Shown here in pieces: positions 35,567 to 37,240 of a stretch of DNA of 64,000 nt (within the stretch, counting starts at the first letter, position 1; every line of letters begins with the position of its first letter). The position numbers were made by a program, and so were the translations under genes. The notes below the pieces were generated by a model. The model was not told where the DNA came from. It worked only from the letters and a program-made list of their open reading frames with translations, and did no database searches. The stretch is from Enterobacter dykesii (GTDB taxonomy: Bacteria > Pseudomonadota > Gammaproteobacteria > Enterobacterales > Enterobacteriaceae): positions 2,170,001 through 2,234,000 of the forward strand of contig NZ_CP126604.1 of the NCBI RefSeq assembly GCF_008364625.2, in the 5' to 3' direction.

Positions 35567-35980
35567 ATGAGCTATGTTACTGAATTTCCGGCTGCCGAGC
35601 CGCAGGAAGCCGTTACCCATTTTCTGCGCCGCCTGAGCGTTGAAACCGACTGTGCGGATGTGCATCACGCCATCGCCAATAATGAGCAGGATTTTGTTTT
35701 GCTGCACGTGGTGGGGAGTCCGGAGCAGTTTGCCCGCCGTCACGTGCCGGGCGCATTGCACCTGCCGCGGAGTCAGATGACTGCCGGGCGCATGGCCGAA
35801 TGGCCTGAAGGCACGCTGTTCGTCGTTTACTGCGCAGGTCCGCACTGTAACGGCGCGGACAGAGCCGCGCTGAAGCTGGCGCGCCTCGGGCTGCCGGTCA
35901 AAATTATGCTCGGGGGGATCGCCGGATGGGAAGATGAAAAGTTCGCCTTTGCCAGCAGCGAAACCGCCGTCGCGCTGTGA
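35567..35980 (+). CDS. Rhodanese-like sulfurtransferase domain protein
   Basis: 137 residues forming a single rhodanese domain: ...FARRHVPGALHLPRSQMT, then an active-site loop VVYCAGPHCNGADRAALKLA in which the first Cys is the likely persulfide carrier and a second Cys follows. The usual six-residue loop CxxGxR is altered here, with C-A-G-P-H-C. It probably transfers sulfur or handles thiols or cyanide in the cytoplasm. It starts 94 bases from ftrA on the opposite strand (AAGGATC before ATG), a pairing seen in other Enterobacter as I recall. Confidence 0.87.
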   Translation: MSYVTEFPAAEPQEAVTHFLRRLSVETDCADVHHAIANNEQDFVLLHVVGSPEQFARRHVPGALHLPRSQMTAGRMAEWPEGTLFVVYCAGPHCNGADRAALKLARLGLPVKIMLGGIAGWEDEKFAFASSETAVAL

Positions 35981-36050
35981 AGATGAATTTTTTTCAACAC
36001 CCGTGAAATTTTCTCGTTTGCCGGAACAGGACAGGTATGACATCTTTTTT

Positions 36051-36074
36051 GGACATTTAGACATCCAGAAGTCT
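36051..36074. promoter_or_regulatory. Three tandem MET boxes (MetJ operator)
   Basis: Consecutive 8-base units GGACATTT, AGACATCC, AGAAGTCT match the MetJ consensus AGACGTCT at 5, 6 and 7 of 8 positions. Tandem MET boxes are the established MetJ-SAM binding arrangement. They lie 63 bases before the MetE-like start codon. Confidence 0.75.
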
Positions 36075-36136
36075 AAAACTTCAAATGATGAATTATCACT
36101 GCGGGCAATTATCGCCGGCAGACTGAGGAGATTTCC

Positions 36137-37240
36137 ATGCAACGACACCACGCCCCGTACCGCGCCGACGTAGTCGGCAGTTTTTTACGCCCGGATGCCA
36201 TCAAGCAGGCTCGCCTGAAGTTCGCCAGCGGCGAGATTGACGCCGGACAGCTTCGCGCGGTGGAAGACGATGCCATTCGCCACGTCGTTGAGCAGCAGTG
36301 TGCGTGCGGCCTGCATGTGGTCACCGACGGTGAATTTCGCCGTGCCTGGTGGCACTTCGACTTCTTCGACGGTCTTCAGGGCGTTGAGCGTTACGATTCA
36401 CAGCAGGGGATCCAGTTCAACGGGGTACAAACCAAAGCCCACGGCGTGCGCGTCACCGGAAAGCTGGGCTTTGGCGACCATCCGATGCTCGAGGATTTCC
36501 GCTACCTGAAAAGCATCAGCGGCAATGCTCAGCCGAAGATGACCATTCCCAGCCCGAGCGTGCTCCATTTCCGCGGCGGGCGTAAAGACATTGATGCGAC
36601 CGTCTATCCGGACCTGAACGTCTATTTTGACGATCTGGCGACCACCTGGCGCGACGCCATCCGCGCATTTTACGACGCGGGCTGCCGCTACCTGCAGCTG
36701 GACGACACCGTCTGGGCCTATCTTTGTTCGGACGACCAGCGCCGTCAGATCCGCGAGCGGGGCGATGATGCCGATGAGCTGGCACGCATCTATGCCCGCG
36801 TCCTGAACAAGGCGCTGGAAGGCAAGCCGGACGATCTGACCATCGGGCTGCACGTCTGTCGCGGTAACTTCCGTTCAACCTGGATTTCCGAAGGTGGCTA
36901 TGAGCCGGTGGCGGAAGTGCTGTTCGGAACGGTCAACGTTGACGCATTCTTCCTTGAATACGACAACGACCGCAGCGGGGATTTCGCGCCATTGCGCTTC
37001 ATTCGCCCGGGCAAACAGCAGGTGGTGCTGGGTCTGATCACCACGAAAAACGGCGAGCTGGAGAACCCGGAGGGGATTAAAGCCCGTCTGGAAGAGGCGG
37101 CAAAATACGTGGCAAAAGAGCAAATTTGCCTCAGCCCGCAGTGCGGCTTTGCCTCTACCGAAGAGGGCAACAGCCTGAGTGAATCCCAGCAGTGGGATAA
37201 AGTCCGTCTGGTCACGCAGATCGCCAGCGAAGTCTGGTAA
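36137..37240 (+). CDS. MetE C-terminal-like (cobalamin-independent methionine synthase II) protein
   Basis: 367 residues, about half the length of MetE, so it consists only of the C-terminal catalytic barrel type seen in YxjG/YxjH and core methionine synthases. Zinc-ligand motifs are visible: His and Cys in IGLHVCRGNF and the distal Cys in LSPQCGFAST. DGEFRRAWWHFDFFDG and QLDDTVWAYL form substrate-site segments. It is expected to make methionine from homocysteine with an unidentified methyl donor. MET boxes upstream support a role in methionine metabolism. A GAGGAG ribosome site precedes the ATG. Downstream lies the urt operon, with its own promoter. Confidence 0.88.
   Translation: MQRHHAPYRADVVGSFLRPDAIKQARLKFASGEIDAGQLRAVEDDAIRHVVEQQCACGLHVVTDGEFRRAWWHFDFFDGLQGVERYDSQQGIQFNGVQTKAHGVRVTGKLGFGDHPMLEDFRYLKSISGNAQPKMTIPSPSVLHFRGGRKDIDATVYPDLNVYFDDLATTWRDAIRAFYDAGCRYLQLDDTVWAYLCSDDQRRQIRERGDDADELARIYARVLNKALEGKPDDLTIGLHVCRGNFRSTWISEGGYEPVAEVLFGTVNVDAFFLEYDNDRSGDFAPLRFIRPGKQQVVLGLITTKNGELENPEGIKARLEEAAKYVAKEQICLSPQCGFASTEEGNSLSESQQWDKVRLVTQIASEVW

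Follow-up and report, generated by a model that had tools for sequence, protein, structure and literature searches.

Results and Discussion

What a half-length homologue of the methionine synthase MetE does behind a row of MET boxes, and from which compound it would take a methyl group, is the question raised by a single gene in the stretch of chromosomal Enterobacter dykesii DNA analyzed here (64 kb in length and referred to as the window in the following). If the donor were not a folate, methionine would be made or recycled in a way that bypasses methyl-tetrahydrofolate (methyl-THF). Such a route would be relevant to models of antifolate action, to B12 dependence, and to the use of methyl compounds from plants or hosts.

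The window gene belongs to the metE2a group

36137..37240, + strand: metE2a-type gene, 367 aa, MetE C-terminal-domain protein (NF005085/PRK06520; identified by profile, Pfam, and phmmer)

The window protein scores 736.6 bits on NF005085 and, with the NCBIfam cut-off at 313, is a member of this family. Pfam assigned PF01717 at 52 bits and found no N-terminal MetE barrel (PF08267). In a phmmer search, residues 5-367 matched the Listeria structure 1ypx with 47% identity, which is the nearest solved structure. A predicted model superposes on 1ypx with a Z of 35.4, compared to about 26-30 for the catalytic halves of MetE; with a mean pLDDT of 78.6, obtained from a shallow alignment, it adds little beyond 1ypx itself. 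The absence of epoxyalkane:CoM transferase among the Foldseek/VIA matches listed excludes nothing. On PRK04326 and PRK00957, other models named methionine synthase, the protein stays far below the cut-off. Its closest named orthologues, which are 98% identical, are those of Enterobacter vonholyi, E. asburiae, and E. chuandaensis, and matches to NF005085 were also found in B. subtilis. We take YxjG and YxjH to be members of the 1ypx group of Bacillota (PRK06233/PRK06520), with which the window protein shares the fold and, as the 1ypx match indicates, similarity over nearly the full length.

The gene group was named metE2a by Augustus & Spicer in 2011 (PMC3228920), who tabulated it in 28 Enterobacteria with metboxes in 28 of 28, while their text attributes them to most genes. 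The arrangement of MetJ boxes before metE2a is already known from this publication. Published MetE2a and the window protein are both half-length MetE homologues encoded behind MET boxes; we found no difference between them, and the window gene looks like another copy. The role of the enzyme was left open in the available text of that study. Leyn et al. report a metE2 among the MetJ targets, the subgroup of which may differ from metE2a (PMC4239095). In the portion of the open-licence literature consulted, we recognized no biochemical or genetic test of an NF005085-family enzyme, and the available text of Price et al. (PMC7857596) makes no mention of Klebsiella, Enterobacter, YxjG, 1ypx, or PRK06520. 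What is added here are the lost folate residues, the genome profiles of a family without MetJ (f151), and the recurrence of strong MET boxes on the tree.

A strong and conserved MetJ operator precedes metE2a

36051..36074, + strand: MetJ operator of three tandem MET boxes (36051-36058, 36059-36066, and 36067-36074; matrix score and orthologue conservation)

The operator consists of three 8-mers in register, GGACATTT AGACATCC AGAAGTCT, and ends 62 bp before the start of metE2a. A consensus scan for two boxes of AGACGTCTAGACGTCT with at most three mismatches found the operator as the sole match in the 64 kb window, where 0.10 matches were expected and 8 of 100 shuffles contained at least one. 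Genome-wide, the same scan was indecisive, with 12 places compared to 20 for a reversed-pattern control, and we therefore relied on a matrix and on conservation. The matrix was derived from the operator regions of eight E. coli K-12 loci (metJ/B, metF, metA, metR/E, metK, metN, mmuP, and ybdH/L), whose own best three-box scores range from 16.4 to 24.1 bits. On this matrix, the three boxes of the window reach 24.2 bits, about the same as K-12 metJ/metB. The runners-up in the 64 kb are register shifts of the same operator (15.1 and 9.8 bits), followed by the best unrelated site with 9.5 bits. Three boxes is the right count, since the score drops when a fourth unit, AAAACTTC, is included. The background consisted of about 1.0 Mb of Enterobacteriaceae DNA from 80 related loci; its only position reaching 24.2 bits is the unmasked operator of an orthologue (L057), and just three positions reach 16.4 bits or more, two of them inside the L057 operator. 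In the genome of the window, the operator ranks alongside a site located between homologues of ybdH and mtnE (25.8 bits; the mtn gene names are putative) and those of metE/R (25.1 bits), metJ/B (24.1 bits), metF (22.5 bits), and metN (20.7 bits). A chance origin of the MET boxes was rejected by the 64 kb scan, the matrix scores, the conservation in orthologues, and the background.

Three tandem MET boxes in front of a MetE C-terminal-type gene had been noted in the preliminary description, and both the boxes and their coordinates proved to be exact. The operator-strength tandem boxes near the start codon and the MetJ gene in the genome mark metE2a as a predicted member of the MetJ regulon. Its repression by MetJ in response to S-adenosylmethionine, which had also been predicted, is well supported: the K. 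pneumoniae metE2a operator was strongly repressed by MetJ in a lacZ assay, with a repression ratio of 0.02 (PMC3228920). A simple scan of the + strand revealed no sigma-70-like promoter, and inspection of the operator region by eye revealed no MetR box. Outside the MET boxes, most positions of two blocks, TGACA (36038-36042) and AATTATCAC (36091-36099), are conserved in nearly all of the 80 orthologues; TGACA and AATTATCAC might be a promoter element or the site of a second regulator and are so far unexplained.

The operator reaches at least 16.4 bits, the score of the weakest training operator, in 75 of the 80 named Enterobacteriaceae orthologues (the five below are L088, L093, L100, L108, and L112) and in 26 of 30 further loci, the window's own among them. 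The mean match to the window across the named orthologues is 88% in the box columns compared to 63% in the flanks. In K. pneumoniae (L098), the operator reads GGACATAT AGCCATCC AGAAGTCT and is of the same kind. More distant copies within the bacterial family of the window genome (f1), with 67-78% identity, reach 16.4 bits in 19 of 22 cases, one at the rounded limit.

For counts across families, boxes of at least 16 bits were regarded as strong. Outside f1, MetJ-bearing families have such boxes in 7 of the 25 copies fetched (of 28); none were found in 22 f151 copies, 5 copies from other classes, or the 5 second copies fetched in f1. Of 46 carriers examined for MetJ, 24 have the gene; none of the 17 f151 genomes and none of the 5 from other classes does. 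On a tree of 73 rows, in which 6 of the 80 named loci stand beside the window and from which 14 loci were left out, 9 changes of the box label are required; well supported (starred) branches force at least 7 of them, gains and losses being indistinguishable. The group labelled as having boxes comprises every retained f1 copy of L204-L225, including L216 (13.6 bits) and L222 (10.0 bits), as well as L112 (13.0 bits) and L088 (15.0 bits), so that these four rows score below 16 bits. The f151 copies fall into two separate groups. That strong boxes turn up in clearly separate regions of the tree agrees with a role related to methionine for the entire NF005085 family.

The zinc site is retained and the folate-binding residues are replaced

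36851..36859, + strand: His239 and Cys241, zinc ligands (E. coli MetE H641 and C643; each 160/160)
36956..36958, + strand: Glu274, zinc ligand (MetE E665; 159/160, one Asp)
37142..37144, + strand: Cys336, zinc ligand (MetE C726; 160/160)
36347..36355, + strand: Trp71-Trp72-His73, family signature replacing MetE Asp489-Met490-Val491 (DMV; WWH in 120/160)

All residue counts refer to an alignment of 160 members of the NF005085 family. The set of zinc ligands reads HCEC in 159 members and HCDC in one, and the homocysteine triad (MetE S433, E484, and D599) is kept in 159 of the 160. The same zinc and homocysteine residues were used by Price et al. for core methionine synthases (PMC7857596). With H239, C241, E274, and C336 all present, the earlier view of a half-length MetE with intact zinc ligands is confirmed.

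The residues that serve folate binding in MetE have a different fate. In MetE, the two substrate sites are coupled through the DMV motif, and a tryptophan (residue 539 in T. maritima) stacks on the pterin (PMC539065). At the DMV position, 33 of the 160 family members carry an aromatic-aromatic-His triplet other than WWH and none carries DMV. The Trp561 position holds Trp in only 2 of 160 and mostly Phe in the family, as it does in the window protein. The E. coli positions D489-M490-V491 and W561 were assigned by means of the numbering offset and of the residues that occupy these sites; in the family, the glutamate-tail and Glu583 positions align too poorly for an assessment. The window protein thus shares the catalytic C-terminal barrel and the zinc site with canonical MetE (E. 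coli b3829) but has neither its N-terminal half nor its DMV motif or folate-stacking Trp, with PF08267 missing and WWH and Phe in place of the latter two.

Alternative routes to methionine in genomes carrying NF005085 members

Members of NF005085 were found in 54 of 297 genomes from an even draw across the order; other methionine routes were tested in these 54 and in five carriers from a class-wide draw, one of which (G335) lies below the family cut-off. Among Enterobacteriaceae, metE2a is not obligatory: it is carried by 59 of the 149 genomes sampled, and the copies of two of these carriers (G028 and G104) contain in-frame stops, which indicates that metE2a can be lost. At blastn sensitivity, a collection of 5,426 E. 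coli genomes yielded no metE2a match.

All 17 f1 carriers tested have both MetE and MTHFR, and 16 of them have MetH. Among the 17 f151 carriers, neither MetH nor MTHFR was found over the cut-off in any genome, no full MetE is present, and 16 have no MetE N-terminal domain; in G522, fragments matching this domain and a sub-cut-off piece of MTHFR are located on one contig. A PF02574 protein (MmuM/BHMT type) is present in four of the f151 carriers and absent from 13. In a search that covered full-length MetE, MetH, and PF02574 proteins, the NF005085 protein is the only homocysteine methyltransferase found in 12 of these 17 genomes, with G522 not counted among the 12; most f151 genomes are fragmented drafts. 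Genomes that carry NF005085 and in which neither MTHFR nor another homocysteine methyltransferase was found are a good place to address the question of the donor.

In a set of 41 f151 genomes, MTHFR over the cut-off is missing from 24 of 27 f151 carriers compared to 4 of 14 non-carriers (Fisher p 0.00017, kinship ignored). Counted by genus, the same association (5 or 6 of 7 compared to 3 of 7) is not significant (p 0.59 or 0.27). A genome of another family (f3; G657) is without MetE, MetH, and MTHFR and has a PF02574 enzyme, a pattern that corresponds to the one reported for Actinobacillus succinogenes by Augustus & Spicer (PMC3228920).

The genome of the window itself has at least five candidate routes, namely MetE, MetH, MesD-MesX, an MmuM-like enzyme, and MetE2a. 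MetE2a is therefore an accessory route in this genome. MesD-MesX is an oxygen-dependent, folate-independent methionine synthase pair (PMC7857596). In the window genome, a MesX gene (PF08908, 590.6 bits) adjoins a MesD-type gene (NF006589, 704.6 bits) at L241:9564-11614 (~C1:2117563-2119613), and on the basis of this adjacency we took NF006589 as the MesD model. The MesD-type protein resembles the window protein in being half-length, in keeping the zinc and homocysteine residues, and in the absence of DMV and Trp561. However, MesD is a separate family: the window protein scores 44.5 bits on NF006589 (cut-off 392) and MesX lies elsewhere, so it is not MesD.

Candidate methyl donors and alternative roles

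Overall, the window gene is in our view likely to be the Enterobacter metE2a, encoding a MetJ-repressed, zinc-dependent homocysteine S-methyltransferase with a non-folate donor. When S-adenosylmethionine is plentiful, MetJ would repress metE2a; when methionine is short, MetJ would leave the operator and the enzyme would be made. As in MetE, the thiol of homocysteine is predicted to be activated by zinc, bound here by His239, Cys241, Glu274, and Cys336, and the resulting thiolate would take the methyl group from the donor. We infer this route to methionine via MetE2a as a whole, with homocysteine as acceptor, methionine as product, and a donor other than folate. The donor may be a small methylated metabolite, our guess being a sulfonium compound or a methylated acid of plant type. 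A point against this reading comes from Phaeobacter inhibens and a core-MetE-like gene that possibly belongs to another family: the stimulation of growth by DMSP did not require this gene (PMC12366255), and methionine auxotrophy occurred in spite of it (PMC12478193).

A donor other than polyglutamyl-methyl-THF was also part of the preliminary description. Because the N-terminal half and the methylfolate-holding residues of MetE are missing, we think that 5-methyl-THF is probably not the donor, and together with the relatives without MTHFR this comparative evidence suggests a methyl donor different from methylfolate; this part of the earlier proposal stands as a prediction. The protein could instead be a redundant folate-dependent methionine synthase, which would bind 5-methyl-THF, perhaps in a short-chain form, without the N-terminal barrel and would back up MetE. 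The folate of MetE is held primarily by the hairpin of the C-terminal barrel (PMC539065), and folate use in Enterobacter retains some probability because MetE and MTHFR (MetF) accompany the gene in all 17 f1 carriers tested and 3 of the 27 f151 carriers do have MTHFR. However, the replacement of DMV and Trp561 across the family and the lack of MTHFR over the cut-off in 24 of 27 f151 carriers make a folate-dependent enzyme unlikely. A core methionine synthase dependent on methylcobalamin or a corrinoid protein, in the manner of MesA/MesB, would agree with the half-length architecture shared with these proteins and with the acceptance of methylcobalamin by characterized core synthases in vitro (PMC7857596, PMC7005905), but appears improbable given that a search directed at MetH found none over the cut-off in the 17 f151 carriers.

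The enzyme might also not be a methionine synthase at all and (de)methylate another thiol or detoxify a methylated compound, being part of the MetJ regulon by using or yielding sulfur. No role was assigned in the available text of the published study (PMC3228920), and a 70.6% identical copy on a Pantoea piersonii plasmid follows a gallate-type ring-cleavage run without a strong MET-box array. We nevertheless regard a different thiol as very unlikely in view of the homocysteine triad in 159 of 160 members and the recurrence of strong MET boxes on separate branches. In the same direction points yxjH of Lactobacillus paracasei, a putative relative annotated as B12-independent methionine synthase, which shares a transcript with luxS under the control of a methionine T-box (PMC6004538), where the window gene is predicted to be controlled by MetJ. 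A broader extension of the favoured reading, a non-folate methyl donor for MetE2a, can only be put forward tentatively: MetE2 may be a fifth widespread folate-independent methionine synthase family beside MesA-D, which would use a small donor from the environment, serve as the sole synthase in the f151 lineage after loss of MetE, MetH, and mostly MTHFR, and have been captured by MetJ more than once.

Genomic neighbourhoods, plasmids, and phages

35567..35980, + strand: rhodanese-domain gene, upstream neighbour of metE2a (PF00581)

Among the 80 named loci, 68 contain a homologue of the rhodanese gene, 66 one of ftrA, and 41 one of urtA. The distance of the rhodanese gene varies between loci, so there is no fixed operon with it, and it is probably not part of the metE2a unit. 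Of the 22 f1 loci with more divergent copies, most have the gene flanked by a brnQ-like gene on one side and a phoR-like or phosphate-binding-type gene on the other, names that were read from the starts of the sequences. Both f1 locations are uninformative, and no operon partner naming the donor was found.

Two shared carriers (neighbour clusters 2 and 4) were considered and rejected, as both clusters mix different subfamilies by sequence; this leaves only the aromatic-acid-type MFS gene of family f170, possibly the result of one inherited event. In all four f170 genomes (L181, L196, L197, and L198), a MetE2 homologue is immediately followed by an MFS gene of the aromatic-acid/H+ symporter type. 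The protein of L181, the only one scored, reaches 354.9 bits on TIGR00895, which is under the cut-off of 418.55. The available text of Augustus & Spicer describes no transporter adjoining MetE2 genes (PMC3228920), whereas the f170 homologue has one. In L198, a phosphotriesterase-family gene is present just upstream.

Homologues were also found in 91 plasmid records and sixteen phage records, and twelve plasmid neighbourhoods from the 91 records have no partner in common. The Pantoea piersonii copy (L248, plasmid NZ_CP115898.1) is located directly after a galB/aldolase/tautomerase/oxidoreductase run annotated for 4-oxalomesaconate (gallate-type) metabolism, with a subunit of an aromatic ring-hydroxylating dioxygenase nearby; its best MET-box array scores 9.7 bits. 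As hints to the donor, the f170 transporter and this gene run are weak, and chance could account for both; because of these two neighbourhoods, a methylated aromatic acid is one donor to try first. On a Klebsiella quasipneumoniae plasmid (L249, NZ_CP034130.1), a metE2-urtABCDE block is flanked by IS elements, with an IS5-family transposase gene just upstream of metE2, where no MET boxes were found. Three f151 loci (L176, L178, and L180) contain two or three tandem MetE2 copies and also hold a LysR-like regulator gene, as read from the sequence.
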